Shown here: piece by piece, positions 31,317 to 54,939 of the stretch
Layout of the letters: each line of letters opens with the position of its first letter
Position numbering within the stretch: the stretch's first letter is position 1
Origin: a virus
Virus record (IMG/VR): IMGVR_UViG_3300005613_000027
Location: 23,112 to 87,111 of that record
Direction: 5' to 3' (one strand)
Length of the DNA stretch: 64,000 nucleotides
Program-made: the position numbers and the translations under genes
The notes under the pieces: model-generated
The model's database searches: none
What the model was told of the DNA's origin: nothing
The model's input: only the letters and a program-made list of their open reading frames with translations

Positions 31317-32631
31317 TTAATAAGACTTTAATGCCATCATATAAGATACACCAGCCTCTACACTAGTCCAATCTGTGTCAGAACCAATTTGTACTGGTGA
31401 AGAACGATATGTTTGATCTCCTTGAGCTAATTGACCATCACCGTTAGCCCCCCAAGCCCAGAGAGTTCCATCTGTCTTAATTGCCACCATGTTAGAACTT
31501 CTCACTGAAATGCTATTCCAATCAGTTAAAACTCCTACCTGAACCGGAGAAGAAAGTTTCGTTTGATGACCTAATCCTAACTGTCCTTGTGTATTATAAC
31601 CCCAGGTCCAGAGAGTTCCATCTGTTTTAATCGCCCCAGTAGCCCCTCCATTCATAGAAAGCTCACTCCAATCAGTTCCAGAGCCAACTTGTACTGGTGA
31701 GGAATAACTAGTAACATTATTCTGTCCTAATTGTCCTTCACTATTACTACCCCAAACCCAAAGAGTTCCGTTTGATCTTATTCCACCAGAATTTAAACCA
31801 CCTGCTTCTATCTTTACCCAATCAGTTAAGGCTCCTACCTGAACTGGAGACGAGCGATCAACTATGTCTCCTAATGCCAATCCACCAGCACTATTATTAC
31901 CCCACATCCATAGAGTTCCATCTGTTTTAATTGTAGCTACGACACCGTTATCAGTACTAATATAATCCCAATCCGTTAAAGCTCCTATTTGAACTGGAGA
32001 TGACCGCTGTACTGTGTCTCCTACACCCAACTGCCCATCAGTGTTATAACCCCAGGACCAAAGAGTCCCATCGGTCTTTTGTGCTATATTGAAATAATCA
32101 CCACCGGCTGTATCACTCCAATCAGTTAGAGAGCCAACTTGTGCTGGTGAAGAACGCCGGTCAATATCACCTAATCCTAACTGACCGTACTCATTATAAC
32201 CCCAGGTCCAGAGAGTTCCATCTGTTTTGATAACTGCTGAATGCATACCTACATGTGTATTTAGTATTTCCCAATCAGTCAAAGCCCCTACTTGTACTGG
32301 TGAAGATCGTGGTGTTATATCTCCCAATCCTAATGTACCGTGTATATTCCAGCCCCATACCCATAATTCTTTTCCGGCGGGTATATATAGTATTGGAGTA
32401 ATGTTTCCATATGACAGTATTTCAATATAGTATTGGAGTAATGTTTCCATATGACAGTATTTCATCTTCATTGGATTCAGCCACAACCATCTTTGTTCCA
32501 TCAACAAGATCTAACACCTCATAAGCACCTGAACCAGATATTACTGTATTAGATTCAATGCTCCAGTCACTCTCTTTTAAAACCATTATACGAGCAGTAT
32601 CGTTTTTTGTTCCAGAAATTTTGTAAGGCAT
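31317..32631 (-). pseudogene. MPYKISG-module RCC1-repeat protein, frameshifted by a 40-bp duplication
   Basis: The module starts at 32631 with AGGAGG (MPYKISGTKNDTARIMV…) and reads to GNITPILY, where it stops at 32422. The RCC1 part resumes in another frame from about 32464 and runs to 31317 with about seven blades of the pattern LW.WG.N..GQLGLGD…SSPVQVG.LTDW. A 40-bp exact tandem copy at 32385-32464 causes the +1 shift; removal of one copy gives a continuous protein joining NITPILY to IPAGKELWVWG. The protein would be a beta-propeller-like adhesin. Confidence 0.85.
32385..32464. repeat. 40-bp tandem duplication within an RCC1-repeat gene
   Basis: Positions 32385-32424 and 32425-32464 are identical 40-bp units (beginning ATATAGTATTGGAGTAATG). 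Forty is not a multiple of three, so the second copy throws the gene out of frame. The copies have not diverged, so the event is recent or recurrent. Confidence 0.95.
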
Positions 32632-34346: not shown

Positions 34347-35645
34347 TTATTTGTAAGCAAGCATATGGTTTTCACCTGCTACAGTTTGACCTACTACCCA
34401 ATCAGTCAAAGCTCCTACTTGTACAGGAGAAGATCTGTGGTTAGTATCTCCTATACCTAATTCACCTTGGTTATTCCATCCCCAACCCCACAAAGTACTG
34501 TCTGTTTTGATTGCATAGACAGAAACACCTCCACTATTAGCAATAGGCGCTAGCCAATCCGTTAAAGCTCCTACTTGTGTTGGAGATGAGCGTCGTGTTA
34601 AATCACCTTGACCTAATATCCCAAAACCAGCCCCGCCCCAAGACCACAATGTTCCATTTGTTTTGGTACCAAAACTAGCTGCAACAGCACAACTTATATA
34701 ATTCCAATTAGTATCAGAACCTACTTGTACTGGAGACGATCTGTGAATTTCATCCCCCAAACCCAAACAACCGCCGCCATTTCCACCTACTGCCCATAAT
34801 TGACCATTAGTTTTTATAAACATACCGTATCTAGCTCCAGCAGCTATTTTACTATAATTATTTCCAACTAGAACTGGAGATGAGTAACCTGTTATATTAT
34901 TCTGACCTAATTGACCTAAATAATTTTGTCCCCAACCATAGAGAAGATTTACATTTGTTAAAGCGTATGTAAATCCAGGACCAAGAGCCAAACTTTGCCA
35001 ATAAGTTTCAGATCCTACTTGCACTGGAGAAGAGCGATGTGTAACATCTTCTAAACCTAATTGCCCATAAGTATTATCTCCCCAAGCCCAAATTGTTCCG
35101 TCTGTCTTGATTCCAACAGTAAAATCATTACCACAAGCTACATCTAACCAATTAGTATCAGACCCTATTTGAACTGGCGAAGAGCGCCTAAAAGGATCGG
35201 TTTCACCATTACCTAATTGACCGCTGCCATTATAACCCCAAGCCCATAATTCACCATCACTTGTAACTACCATAGTATGACATTCACCACCAGCTAATTC
35301 ACTTGAGCTTCTGTCAAAACCAACCTGTACTGGAGACGAGCGCGGTATAACATCTTCTAAACCTAACTGTCCTTGTATATTATAACCCCAAGTCCACAAA
35401 GGATTAGGTATTATATATTCAGTAGGATTTATGGTATGTCCTTGAACCCACCCATCACGCACTCTACGACCAAGAACAAGCTTCTCTGTATTTGTTAAAC
35501 CTGTCAACTCATAATCTCTGTATCCAGATGCTCCCGAAGTACCAGAAAAAACAGTATTGTCTTCTATTGTATAATCATTTTTATCTATTACAATAACTCT
35601 ACATGTATGATTGTGACTTATAAATCCTGATATCTTATATGGCAT
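34347..35645 (-). CDS. MPYKISG-module protein with RCC1-type repeats
   Basis: A 432-aa protein. Residues 1-78 are a divergent module (MPYKISGFISHNHTCRV…), followed by about seven RCC1 blades (WTWGYNIQGQLGLEDV, SSPVQVG…). The blades differ in sequence but keep W.WG, GQLG and SSPVQVG. RCC1 blades build seven-bladed propellers, matching the repeat count. It is intact, unlike the frameshifted neighbour, and overlaps the methionine aminopeptidase gene by 11 nt. An adhesin/fibre tip is likely. Confidence 0.75.
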   Translation of the reverse strand: MPYKISGFISHNHTCRVIVIDKNDYTIEDNTVFSGTSGASGYRDYELTGLTNTEKLVLGRRVRDGWVQGHTINPTEYIIPNPLWTWGYNIQGQLGLEDVIPRSSPVQVGFDRSSSELAGGECHTMVVTSDGELWAWGYNGSGQLGNGETDPFRRSSPVQIGSDTNWLDVACGNDFTVGIKTDGTIWAWGDNTYGQLGLEDVTHRSSPVQVGSETYWQSLALGPGFTYALTNVNLLYGWGQNYLGQLGQNNITGYSSPVLVGNNYSKIAAGARYGMFIKTNGQLWAVGGNGGGCLGLGDEIHRSSPVQVGSDTNWNYISCAVAASFGTKTNGTLWSWGGAGFGILGQGDLTRRSSPTQVGALTDWLAPIANSGGVSVYAIKTDSTLWGWGWNNQGELGIGDTNHRSSPVQVGALTDWVVGQTVAGENHMLAYK

Positions 35646-36641: not shown

Positions 36642-37157
36642 TTATTTTAAAGCCGAAACGTGATACTGACCACCAGTAATACTACTCCAATCAGTTAGAG
36701 AGCCAACTTGAACAGGTGAAGAATAATTTGTTTGGTTACCTAAACCTAGTTGACCGCTGCCATTATAACCCCAAGACCAAAGAGTTTTATCAGTTTTGGT
36801 TGTCATAGTGTGAAATTCACCACAAGCAATATTTTCCCAAGCAGTCAAGGCCCCAACTTGTACTGGTGAAGAGCGGGCGGTTATATCTTCTTGACCTAAT
36901 TCACCATAGTCATTACGCCCCCACATCCAAATTTCTAAACCAGGCGGCGCATAAAATTCTGATGTAACATTTCCAAACCCAAGCATCTCTCCTTCAGCAG
37001 ACCTTGCTACTACAGTCTTGGTTCCAACTTCAAGACCTGTTATTTCATAACTACCTGAGCCAGATATAACTGTATTATCTTCAACAGACCAATCTGATTC
37101 TTTGACAGTTATAATTCTAGCGGTTTCTGATTTAGTTCCTGATATTTTATAAGGCAT
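36642..37157 (-). CDS. MPYKISG-module protein with two RCC1 blades
   Basis: A 171-aa protein: module at 1-74 (MPYKISGTKSETARIITV … MLGFGNVTS) and only about two RCC1 blades (WMWGRNDYGELGQED, then WSWGYNGSGQLGLGN). It stops at YHVSALK, where longer members end too (SYMMALK, NHMLAYK), so it looks like an internally shortened version rather than a broken gene. Two blades could not close a propeller alone, so it may assemble with others. Confidence 0.7.
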   Translation of the reverse strand: MPYKISGTKSETARIITVKESDWSVEDNTVISGSGSYEITGLEVGTKTVVARSAEGEMLGFGNVTSEFYAPPGLEIWMWGRNDYGELGQEDITARSSPVQVGALTAWENIACGEFHTMTTKTDKTLWSWGYNGSGQLGLGNQTNYSSPVQVGSLTDWSSITGGQYHVSALK

Positions 37158-47240: not shown

Positions 47241-47411
47241 TTAGTTCTCCTTCTTTTTGGAGTAATGTGTACAAGACGTAACATTAGGAGTTTTATAATC
47301 TTTACCATATTTATCTTGGTAATGACCTACTTTAAGTTTATCAAACACACCTACTCTAACTAAACATGCTTTTTTGGTGATGTTTTGTCCACCATTAAAA
47401 TTTATATTTAA
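47241..47411 (-). pseudogene. 3' remnant of a gene cut by the IscB element
   Basis: A 56-codon frame without start codon reads LNINFNGGQNITKKACLVRV … YKTPNVTSCTHYSKKKEN and stops 2 nt before the next gene's ATG. It runs out of the truncated tnpA in a different frame. The codon use and composition are gene-like, so it is probably the end of a protein whose start was lost when the IscB element arrived. Confidence 0.5.
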
Positions 47412-47601
47412 TCAATATATGAACATGATTAATATCTACTTCCATTTCTATTATTTTAAAATCAGATATATTTTCTATTCTGTAAAATTCACTTTTGATA
47501 AAATTTCCAAAATTCACTAACAATGACTTTCTATATTTGCAAACAAATATTAAATGGCAAATTAACAAATGTTTTGAATGATTTTCTGATACATAATCCA
47601 C
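47395..47601 (-). pseudogene. truncated TnpA (Y1 transposase) of the IscB element
   Basis: A 67-aa ORF with the N-terminal half of an IS200/IS605 Y1 transposase: SKHLLICHLIFVCKYRKSLL and the HUH motif in NHVHILIKY. It ends just after HUH, lacking the catalytic Tyr helix, so it cannot transpose. Its start overlaps the end of iscB by 40 nt, a common arrangement in these elements. Confidence 0.8.
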
Positions 47602-48845
47602 GATTTTCTTGCTCCAATCCTTTGTAAATTATTTAATTTAGGTGTTTTCATTCCTCTTGGCATATTTGAAAAATCTACTTTATTACCAAATATATCCATT
47701 AAAATACAATAACCTGAACTCATACGCCCTTTGATAAAATATTCTTTACCTAAATATTTAACTTTATCAAATTTTCTAAATCCTTGAATTTTACCTGTTG
47801 GTATTTTTTGTTCTGAACGAATGCCTTTAGTTTTTTGGTAATCACGATACGAAACACATTTCTTATACAAAATTTGACTTGTTTTAAAATCAATATTTAT
47901 CTGTCCTGTATTTATAATATTATTTAAACAAGCTATAGCCACAGCGTCATTATAATGTTCTTTAGTTAGTTCTAAATACCGTCTATGAACTTTAGTTATA
48001 TATCCAAAGGTTTCTTCTGCTTCAACTTTTTTTAGTAATTGTATTCTTATACTGTTCATTTGTGTTGCATGTTTTAATTGATTTTTGGTTTTTCCTTTTT
48101 TCTTTAATTTAATTTTACCTTTATGTAATTTGTCATGACAAGATTTACATAGAGTTATAAGATTGCTTTCTTCGTTTGATCCATTATTACTCCTAAAAAT
48201 AATATGATGAACCTCTAATTTACTGTCTTTGCTTTTACCTTTACAATATTGACAAGTGTAATTATCTCTATTTAAAACCATTGCTTTAGCATTTTCAAAT
48301 CCATAATTTAATCCTTTTTGGTACATCCACTTATTTTTTAATACAGCTGGATTTTTTAAGGCGTGAGTATCAAAATTACCTGTTTCAATTATAACTTTGG
48401 TAATTGGAAGTATAGATTTAACAAAATTAATTTCTTTTAAATGATTATTAATTTTACTTGTCATAGTAGGTGAAAATCTACCATTTTTAATACTATTTTT
48501 CCTATTTAGCCACCTTGCTTTACGGTATCTAGTTTTTCTATTCCTTCTACTTCTACGATATTTTGACCTACGATTCATTTTGTCTGAAATATCATTTCTT
48601 ATTTCAACTTCTGATAAATACACAACTTCATTGTTTTCATTTACAACTGCACTACCTATTTTGCTACTTCCAGTATCTACACCAAGCATTAAATCTTGAG
48701 TATAATTAGTAGTTTGATAAGTTAATTTAATTGTAAACGGTGTTTTTCTTTTAACTTTAGCCTTACCTGATTTTAGTAATAATCTTGCTATTACATTAGT
48801 ACATGGCATTAAAGGTGTTCCGTCATAATTAATTACATAAACCAT
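47562..48845 (-). CDS. iscB: IscB, RNA-guided HNH/RuvC nuclease
   Basis: A 427-aa protein with all IscB parts: PLMP domain (GTPLMPCTNVIARLL), RuvC-I Asp57 in GVDTGSSKIG, Arg-rich bridge helix (RRSKYRRSRRNRKTRYRK), RuvC-II Glu154 in VIIETGNFDTH, HNH domain with CQYC, EVHHIIF and LCKSCH, RuvC-III HYNDAVAIA (His297, Asp300) and a C-terminal TAM-interacting domain. All catalytic residues are present. It would cut DNA chosen by the omega-RNA encoded just upstream. IscB is the ancestor-type relative of Cas9. Confidence 0.95.
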   Translation of the reverse strand: MVYVINYDGTPLMPCTNVIARLLLKSGKAKVKRKTPFTIKLTYQTTNYTQDLMLGVDTGSSKIGSAVVNENNEVVYLSEVEIRNDISDKMNRRSKYRRSRRNRKTRYRKARWLNRKNSIKNGRFSPTMTSKINNHLKEINFVKSILPITKVIIETGNFDTHALKNPAVLKNKWMYQKGLNYGFENAKAMVLNRDNYTCQYCKGKSKDSKLEVHHIIFRSNNGSNEESNLITLCKSCHDKLHKGKIKLKKKGKTKNQLKHATQMNSIRIQLLKKVEAEETFGYITKVHRRYLELTKEHYNDAVAIACLNNIINTGQINIDFKTSQILYKKCVSYRDYQKTKGIRSEQKIPTGKIQGFRKFDKVKYLGKEYFIKGRMSSGYCILMDIFGNKVDFSNMPRGMKTPKLNNLQRIGARKSWIMYQKIIQNIC

Positions 48846-52611: not shown

Positions 52612-52905
52612 GTGAGTACTCAACAACAACCGGAAGCCGCGCCACTACAATGTTTTGAATGTGGTGCCGAAGTAAAACGTCTGCCAGGTACACCTGAGGA
52701 CATGGAAGAAAGTATGTGTCCTGCGTGTATCAAGAAGTTCCCATTAGCTATGTGTCATGGGTGTCCTGCTGAACGTCAGACAAAAGAAGTGGTAGGCGCA
52801 CACTTTGTCTGTGATAACATGGATTGTCCAAACGGTCTTAAAGAATTGGATAAAACATGCCATGACCGTAAAAATTGGCTCTTTCATGATGGCACACTAC
52901 GTTAA
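52612..52905 (+). CDS. multi-zinc-ribbon protein
   Basis: A 97-aa protein starting at GTG 52612 (GAAAGGAGGTGATATC). Cys pairs CFECGAEV, CPACIKK, CHGCPAE and CDNMDCPN indicate at least two zinc sites. Such proteins usually bind nucleic acids or proteins. It is the last gene before the structured non-coding region. Confidence 0.7.
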   Translation: MSTQQQPEAAPLQCFECGAEVKRLPGTPEDMEESMCPACIKKFPLAMCHGCPAERQTKEVVGAHFVCDNMDCPNGLKELDKTCHDRKNWLFHDGTLR

Positions 52906-52944
52906 GGAAGGGAGGTGATAACTATCAAATAATCAGGTAGGAAA

Positions 52945-53069
52945 GAGCAGGGGTCAATGGGATTGGGATCCGAACCGGCCCCTGCTCCCACCTGTTCTGT
53001 ACACAAACCATTCGTAGGAGTGGGAAGCGGCACTCACGGTCTACCCAGGTTTGTGTGCAGTACAGGTGG
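52945..53069 (+). ncRNA. double-hairpin RNA element related to the GEMM-I motif
   Basis: GAGCAGGGG (52945-52953) pairs perfectly with CCCCTGCTC (52979-52987). The next 22 nt (52988-53009, ending CACAAACC) pair with 53048-53069 at 20 of 22 positions. The apical part reads AAACCATTCGTAGGAGTGGGA, nearly the P1b arm of GEMM-I riboswitches, but CGCAAAGCC is missing. It may be a degenerate riboswitch or a partner of the one downstream. Confidence 0.6.
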
Positions 53070-53135
53070 TTGATACCATCTAGCGTAATTCTGCCCGCTA
53101 TAAGCAGAAACAACTACTTCCAAGGAGGTGTTATT

Positions 53136-53162
53136 ATGGATGATACCACCTCGCTAAGCTAA
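53136..53162 (+). CDS. 8-aa leader peptide MDDTTSLS
   Basis: AAGGAGGTG is followed at good spacing by ATG and an 8-codon ORF whose stop codon lies within P1 of the riboswitch. CACCTC in its codons can pair with GAGGTG of its own ribosome-binding site. Translation of this leader would therefore disturb the riboswitch base. Confidence 0.45.
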   Translation: MDDTTSLS

Positions 53163-53244
53163 CATGGCAAACCCATCGTAAGGTGGGGGCGCAAAGCCAC
53201 GGGGGCCCGCCGCACTCACTGGGTAGGGGCTAGCCGGGTTGTTA
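53160..53244 (+). promoter_or_regulatory. c-di-GMP-I (GEMM-I) riboswitch
   Basis: The consensus core is present in order: P1 UAACA (53160-53164) pairing with UGUUA (53240-53244); GGCAAACC (53166-53173); arm CCCATC-GTAA-GGTGGG with a GNRA loop; CGCAAAGCC (53190-53198); and the closing UAGCCGGGUU. The base equal to G20 of the V. cholerae Vc2 aptamer is G, which favours c-di-GMP over cGAMP. No obvious terminator follows, so control may be at translation or RNA stability. Ligand binding is not shown. Confidence 0.75.
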
Positions 53245-53309
53245 TTCATGATCACAGGCAATCATATATGTGAGTCTATTCCTTATCATGATCTCTAAAT
53301 TGCCAAAAG

Positions 53310-53470
53310 GAATTGTGATTATGCTGCCGCTTAGCGAACGGAAGACAAGGGTAGTTAGGACAAATAAACTCCTAACCAATAGAGCCACTCTGTGGAGTAC
53401 CACGCACACTGTGGAGGACTACCCACAACGTGGAGGACTACCCACTGAGCGGATAGGGGAGGACAGGATT
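53310..53470 (+). ncRNA. structured segment downstream of the riboswitch
   Basis: Contains the hairpin GTTAGGA-CAAATAAAC-TCCTAAC (53354-53376), CCACTCTGTGG, two direct copies of GTGGAGGACTACCCA (53411-53425 and 53430-53444) and CCGCTTA near 53322 that can pair with TGAGCGG at about 53446. It looks like a multi-branched RNA. No match to a named family is recognised by eye. Confidence 0.5.
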
Positions 53471-53542
53471 ACATGAACCGTTTTCCTTATATAAGAACTG
53501 CATTTTAAAGTACAACTTTATGAGAACTAAGGAGGTGATATC

Positions 53543-53728
53543 ATGGCAGGATTAGTAGAAATGGCCACTCCCAATGGATGGTTATCTACATCAGAAGAAC
53601 AAGAACAAAGTGGATTTAAGTTTGTTAAGAACCACCAGGTACTGGCTTCTGATGTTAGAAAAACTAAGAAAAAGAAAAAGAAACGTAGAAAAATTGTTGC
53701 ACGATCACGTGCACGTAATCGCAAGTAA
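53543..53728 (+). CDS. small protein with highly basic C-terminus
   Basis: A 61-aa protein: a neutral first half (MAGLVEMATPNGWLSTS…) and a tail of KTKKKKKKRRKIVARSRARN. AAGGAGGTGATATC precedes the ATG. It is the first gene after the structured region and the best candidate for riboswitch control. A nucleic-acid-binding or charge-neutralising role is likely. Confidence 0.65.
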   Translation: MAGLVEMATPNGWLSTSEEQEQSGFKFVKNHQVLASDVRKTKKKKKKRRKIVARSRARNRK

Positions 53729-54115: not shown

Positions 54116-54358
54116 ATGCCGAACAAACAACCGTTTATAACAACCTACCTGGCATGTGTTGGGTGGAAGGCACAACTGATTGTATGGAATGAAGATGAGC
54201 AGATCTGGGAGCCTTGGCAGACCAGTTTCTTTGCTTATGGAACGGAAGAAGAGGCTGAATGCTACGGTGTAAGCTGGGCAGAAGCCGAGGGAATTGAATT
54301 TCAATACAGAAATAAGGAACGGAAGGAGGTGAATTCACAATGTATTATACTGGCGTAG
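54116..54358 (+). CDS. small hypothetical protein
   Basis: An 80-aa protein from the ATG at 54116 (AAAGGAGGTGATACC), acidic and aromatic (LIVWNEDEQIWEPWQTSFF; EAECYGVSWAEAEGIEF). The end overlaps the SLOG gene start by 19 nt. No family is recognised. Confidence 0.6.
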   Translation: MPNKQPFITTYLACVGWKAQLIVWNEDEQIWEPWQTSFFAYGTEEEAECYGVSWAEAEGIEFQYRNKERKEVNSQCIILA

Positions 54359-54939
54359 GAGCAAGGGCAACTCCTGCTCACATACTGCAGCTTATGACAC
54401 AGATTGCAGTTAAACTTGCTGCTTTAGGGTGGACTCTACGCTCAGGTGGTGCAGCAGGAGCAGACTTGGCATTTGAACAAGGTGCTACATTAAAGCAAAT
54501 CTTCCATGCTAATATGGCCACTGAACAGGCTATGGCCATAGCGGCGGCATTCCACCCTGCATGGAACAAGATGGGGTCTTATGCTCAAAAACTTCATGGA
54601 AGGAATGCTTTTCAAGTGCTTGGACCATCACTATGCGAGCCATCGACGTTCTTGGTGTGCTGGACACCTGATGGATGCCCTGCATGGAACAAGATGGGGT
54701 CTTATGCTCAAAAACTTCATGGAAGGAATGCTTTTCAAGTGCTTGGACCATCACTATGCGAGCCATCGACGTTCTTGGTGTGCTGGACACCTGATGGATG
54801 CAAATCTCACGCCACCAGAACACGCGCTACTGGCGGCACTGGTACTGCTATATCCATCGCTTCACATTATCGTTTGTCAATAAACAATTTGGCAAATACT
54901 GAAACCTTCAACATATGGACAGCTTGGCTGCAAAGATAA
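54340..54939 (+). CDS. SLOG-like Rossmann protein with internal 41-aa duplication
   Basis: A 199-aa protein that opens MYYTGVGARATPAHILQLM and then LGWTLRSGGAAGADLAFEQG, the nucleotide-binding start of SLOG/DprA-like proteins (bacterial members bind NAD/ADP-ribose-type ligands). A 41-residue stretch beginning PAWNKMGSYAQKLHG is present twice in exact tandem, so without it the protein would be 158 aa. GGAGGTGAATTCAC precedes the ATG. Confidence 0.7.
   Translation: MYYTGVGARATPAHILQLMTQIAVKLAALGWTLRSGGAAGADLAFEQGATLKQIFHANMATEQAMAIAAAFHPAWNKMGSYAQKLHGRNAFQVLGPSLCEPSTFLVCWTPDGCPAWNKMGSYAQKLHGRNAFQVLGPSLCEPSTFLVCWTPDGCKSHATRTRATGGTGTAISIASHYRLSINNLANTETFNIWTAWLQR
54555..54801. repeat. 123-bp exact in-frame tandem duplication
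   Basis: 54555-54677 and 54678-54800 are identical (unit starts CCCTGCATGGAAC). The 123-bp unit equals 41 codons and keeps the frame. No differences between copies; recent event or assembly artefact. Confidence 0.95.

Follow-up and report, generated by a model that had tools for sequence, protein, structure and literature searches.

The 2008 paper that first described GEMM riboswitches reportedly mentioned a phage too. Two GEMM-I switches have since been placed in PhiCD119-like C. difficile prophages (PMC3649979; PMC11477304), where they precede type I antitoxin RNAs (PMC11477304). The Cd1 switch has been reported without a P1 helix (PMC9262584), and several studies bear on substitutions in the ligand pocket: a review citing Shanahan 2011 states that a C92U mutant of class I binds 3',3'-cGAMP (PMC12032345), a G20A/C92U mutant is listed as a binder of c-di-AMP (PMC7288161), and a modelling paper, with the measurements it quotes, reports that pocket changes at G20/C92 weaken c-di-GMP binding (PMC9049102). 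The locus described here adds to the known phage GEMM-I switches a variant with an altered pocket. It lies in a 64-kb window, bases 23112-87111 of a virus record in IMG/VR that is 87,111 bases long, and matches to terminase, portal and DprA-like PHROG families in the record support the original prediction that the carrier is a phage.

The c-di-GMP-I model RF01051 matches positions 53156-53246 of the + strand with 53.3 bits, 18 bits over its curated gathering score of 35 (whole-window E 1.4e-7). This is the sole RNA family above threshold in the 64 kb and the only RF01051 match in the 87-kb record, so that the GEMM-I aptamer proposed earlier is borne out by the covariance model. Both P2 and P3 are kept, as are the GNRA loop of P2 (GUAA, 53178-53181) and, in the RF01051 alignment, the receptor-side bulges of P3 (A at 53199 and AG at 53232-53233). 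The earlier view that every conserved GEMM-I block is present goes too far, since positions 92 and 93, C in the consensus, are both U here (53242 and 53243), and of the two consensus As ahead of G20 the first is replaced by C. We conclude that the element is a genuine, diverged GEMM-I aptamer.

The aptamer occupies a leader of ~620 nt between two phage genes and has the orientation of its neighbours. The preceding gene, in the same direction, ends at 52905; the first gene on the 3' side, about 300 nt from the aptamer, is a Lys/Arg-rich ORF of 61 aa (53543-53728, +) for which no family match was found. An intrinsic terminator as expression platform was considered and rejected, none being found on the + strand around the aptamer. 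Two strong hairpins (52945-52987 and 52988-53069, +) stand between the preceding gene and the leader's short upstream ORF, in a region (52910-53130) that folds with a z score of -5.7, matched by 0 of 200 shuffles, and holds inverted repeats I1 and I3. A hidden second GEMM in the hairpin at 52988-53069 was likewise discarded, since with a cut-off as loose as E 10 Rfam still gave no match of this family there. Both here (52945-53069) and in a related phage (L260, 8690-8795) the stretch from the preceding gene to the leader holds very strong paired hairpins, possibly RNase III-type processing sites. Elsewhere in the window we observed an IscB-like protein with RRXRR and HNH domains (47562-48845, -), close to a truncated TnpA-like ORF (47395-47601) and with no Rfam RNA above threshold beside its gene; a DprA-like gene (54340-54939, +) with a perfect internal tandem duplication in which PAWNKMGSYAQKLHGRNAFQVLGPSLCEPSTFLVCWTPDGC occurs twice, either real or an assembly effect; and, by eye, RCC1-like WGxNxxGQLGLGD repeats in repetitive proteins of the structural-gene region (31317-32507, 34347-35645 and 36642-37157, -).

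Related phages were found by terminase alignments, which gave 10 loci at first and 80 kept later, and RF01051 was searched at E 0.1 in the 48 larger related records. No GEMM match was obtained in 44 of these, many of which are fragments; one such relative (G029) carries a pair of hairpins in a comparable position, and weak matches in G030 and G031 were set aside as lying inside structural genes. A strong canonical GEMM-I (75 bits) is present in the 234-kb phage G032 (L343), about 25 nt before a gene for a signal-peptide protein; the same contig has a Pistol ribozyme (65.3 bits, 73-142) about 1.4 kb upstream of that aptamer. The 53-kb phage G001, whose terminase is 60% identical to that of the window, gave a weak match of 20.9-25.8 bits, below the gathering score. 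Its domain is nevertheless homologous to ours, with 55 nt aligned and 0 of 1000 shuffles as good. P2 is kept through an A-U to G-C change, the pocket retains G20, A47, C92 and C93, and the P3 apical word GCACTsACTGGG is common to both copies; in the G001 domain lower P3 is mismatched twice and a hairpin has been inserted. In both phages the domain comes before a small basic gene, with DprA/DUF4326/NADAR-type genes farther downstream (assigned by eye in G001), and both have two strong hairpins upstream, but these are not alignable. Wider searches were less productive. The P3 apical word, scanned for as a pattern, turned up in G001 only and in no third case, no DNA similarity to 52900-53560 was found among phage records, the PcfJ-like and SSB-like proteins used as queries brought up no useful set of relatives, and a loose pattern scan of viral contigs was discarded because almost all of its matches were coding-region chance.

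The second conspicuous part of the leader is an upstream ORF of eight codons, MDDTTSLS, running from the ATG at 53136 to the TAA at 53162 (+) behind the Shine-Dalgarno (SD) sequence AAGGAGGTG at 53122-53130, whose duplex with the 16S end is calculated at -14.0 kcal/mol. The stop lies 3 nt ahead of position 20. That this ORF has a strong ribosome-binding site, and that its codons can pair with that site, had both been predicted and both hold, the latter as a hairpin at 53122-53152 (+) in which GAGGUG pairs with CACCUC (-12.2 kcal/mol). Comparable ORFs precede the other two domains: in G001 a GTG ORF of 25 codons (SD -14.1) ends 23 nt upstream of the core; in G032 the distance is 21 nt, for the ORF ATG AGA TAA (SD -15.3), and a further ORF with an SD of its own, ATG TTC ACA TAA, comes ahead of that one. 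All three phages of the clade that have GEMM domains therefore carry a short ORF, with a very strong SD, that ends 3-23 nt upstream, and an SD of -13.9 is reached at 0 of 71 other GEMM sites in bacterial and viral contigs, a comparison to be read with the definition of such an ORF fixed after the window case had been seen and with the window and G001 being homologous, so that G032 is the added case. Positions with an ORF of this kind that ends 0-25 nt upstream make up 0.1-0.5% of these phages (maximum 0.45%; 0.13% in the window). The 8-aa ORF is thus more than a chance occurrence. The peptides of the three upstream ORFs are unlike one another, so position and initiation strength, and not peptide sequence, appear to matter, and the arrangement suggests an operon-internal design with interplay between ribosome and aptamer folding. 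The nearest bacterial parallel is a GEMM-I on the minus strand of L194 (1886-1923), where a GTG ORF of nine codons with a fairly strong SD (-12.8) ends 7 nt before the core.

How the aptamer is closed has to be revised. The original prediction contained a P1 of 5 bp, UAACA/UGUUA (53160-53164/53240-53244), which is probably wrong: it is incompatible with the canonical P3 because it uses U90, which pairs with A49, and U92, a ligand contact, bases that belong to P3 and to the pocket. As candidate closing stem we propose instead a perfect helix of 9 bp between TCGCTAAGC (53151-53159) and GCTTAGCGA (53329-53337, +), which fits better; its 5' strand is exactly codons 6-8 of the 8-aa ORF, the last three sense codons, and it encloses the aptamer together with a further hairpin of 10 bp (53247-53323, +; -16.4 kcal/mol) that lies between the aptamer and the 3' strand. 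The reported absence of a P1 from the Cd1 switch makes such an unusual closing stem compatible with function. Adjacent to the 3' strand, in a segment spanning 53325-53337 (+), UGCC (53325-53328) can pair with GGCA at 53166-53169, which is pocket positions 20-23. In the free fold this pairing lengthens the 9-bp helix and closes the pocket, at -66.2 kcal/mol vs -64.2 kcal/mol when the closing helix and canonical P2 are forced, a gap of about 2. A downstream GGCAAAC in G001 can likewise pair with the GUUUGCC that contains positions 20-22, and we infer that the two are candidate anti-aptamer pairings. The P3 apical segment CTCACTGGGTAG (53215-53226, +) is in addition complementary at 11 of 12 positions to CTACCCACTGAG at 53438-53449 (inverted repeat I2). 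Shuffling the 3' flank gave a helix of 9 bp in 11 of 1000 cases, and the apical complementarity was reached by 2 of 300 shuffles, figures that are suggestive in view of the several long-range pairings examined, and the fold of the whole region 53110-53356 is modestly stable (z -2.2).

These features suggest how the leader might work. Without ligand, GGCA at positions 20-23 would pair with UGCC and lengthen the closing helix; with ligand, they would move into the pocket. A ribosome at the end of the ORF (53162) would cover the 5' strand of the 9-bp helix; ORF translation and aptamer folding should therefore affect each other. Our preferred reading, which we hold with about even confidence, is that a diverged GEMM-I in a phage leader, folded together with a strong-SD ORF, is most likely a working cis-regulator of the operon that begins with the 61-aa gene; binding of a ligand, switching and an effect on the downstream gene are all predicted parts of this reading. 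We count in its favour the covariance score, the kept core, the homologue in G001, the presence of the ORF in three of three cases and the small energy gap between open and closed pocket. Counted against it are U92 with U93, the sub-threshold G001 domain with its P3 mismatches, the 44 of 48 relatives in which no GEMM was found, the modest stability of the fold, the missing + strand terminator and the distance to the gene.

What such a regulator would sense depends on the pocket, whose bases we read from the RF01051 alignment and from a separate script in which pairing of P3 locates the 3' segment. We take the numbering 20/47/92 on the window sequence from the Rfam alignment together with the Vc2 structure. 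Position 20 is G (53166) and position 47 is A (53193). Position 92 is the usual pairing base for the second guanine of the ligand, and C is usual there, though not universal. The original prediction had deduced the c-di-GMP type from a G at the specificity base; the G at position 20 stands, but the type does not follow from it, given that U92 is reported to admit 3',3'-cGAMP. The c-di-GMP-I-UAU model RF03168 scores 51.8 bits, slightly less than RF01051 and under its gathering score of 65.9, and its pocket U20/A47/U92 is not the one found here, the window having G20. When one genome per species was scanned for the pattern and the pocket script applied, G20/A47/U92 was found in at least 14 bacterial aptamers, including those of Geobacteraceae and Alicyclobacillus; all have C93 and otherwise normal features, and the UAU model gives two of those in Geobacteraceae 80 and 74 bits. 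The genes on the 3' side of the bacterial G20/U92 aptamers are ordinary GEMM targets such as pilin-like, sensor and secreted proteins. No U92 was seen in the other viral-contig GEMMs inspected. Three viral-contig aptamers (L253, L255 and L257) have A20, the base associated with cGAMP, with C92 kept, and possibly belong to flanking or prophage DNA. Given the U92/U93 pocket and the reported effects of pocket mutants, the sequence does not settle the ligand, which may be c-di-GMP bound more weakly or 3',3'-cGAMP.

One alternative, possible if rather doubtful, is an ordinary c-di-GMP switch that would tolerate U92 as a G-U wobble. The canonical G20 and A47, the slight preference for RF01051 and the otherwise normal bacterial G20/U92 aptamers are consistent with this, but the changes at G20/C92 described in the modelling paper weaken c-di-GMP binding, and every bacterial G20/U92 case classified has C93 where the phage has U93. 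Somewhat less probable is a decaying relic: an ancestor would have gained the GEMM-I aptamer, which has since lost ligand binding and is kept, or drifts, as a stable RNA fold. The loss of both Cs at the second-guanine site would agree with decay, as would the mismatched P3 and inserted hairpin of the G001 copy and the scarcity of GEMM matches among related phage records. The two copies, however, retain a paired P2 with its GNRA loop and share the P3 apical word while their flanking hairpins cannot be aligned, and in G001 the contacts at 20, 47 and 92 are intact; with the core kept better than the flanks, drift alone would not suffice. That G20/A47/U92 would select 3',3'-cGAMP, with the ligand's G at one site and its A paired to U92, and let the phage read cGAMP signalling of the host, such as that of Hypr enzymes or a CBASS alarm, is improbable: the reported binding of 3',3'-cGAMP by C92U and of c-di-AMP by G20A/C92U, and the recurrence of G20/U92 aptamers in Geobacteraceae, a group with cGAMP signalling (PMC8835794), argue for it, but in bacteria the genes behind G20/U92 aptamers are ordinary GEMM targets, U93 adds another change, and the ORFs examined yielded no cyclic-dinucleotide enzyme. 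More speculative still would be a phage riboswitch that reads 3',3'-cGAMP by its natural U92 and acts through translation of the micro-ORF abutting the aptamer; if this were true, the phage would respond to the cyclic-dinucleotide immune or signalling state of its host. A natural phage aptamer with the substitution that admits cGAMP in a laboratory mutant in any case opens the question of RNA-based sensing, by phages, of cyclic dinucleotides in the infected cell.

Set against the described systems, our preferred cis-regulator resembles c-di-GMP-I (RF01051) in its core sequence, P2 with GNRA loop, P3 A and AG bulges, G20 and A47, and differs in U92/U93, the lack of a canonical P1, the enclosing 9-bp helix and the upstream ORF. 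With c-di-GMP-I-UAU (RF03168) it shares U92, the GUAA loop and the GGGUUGU 3' segment, but has G20 in place of U20 and stays under the gathering score. Like the cGAMP class (GEMM-Ib) and the engineered C92U mutant of class I it has one altered pocket base, and the C92U substitution is identical; in GEMM-Ib, however, the change is at position 20 (G to A), whereas here it is at 92, with a putative effect on the ligand. Cdi1_4 and Cdi1_5 of PhiCD119-like elements in C. difficile are likewise GEMM-I in phage DNA, but they lie in the lysis region before type I antitoxin RNAs (PMC3649979, PMC11477304), and ours heads an uncharacterised early operon behind an upstream ORF. The GEMM-I of the related phage G032 goes with a related terminase and has a short strong-SD ORF just upstream, as here, and differs in its canonical pocket, its score of 75 bits and the signal-peptide protein that follows it so closely.
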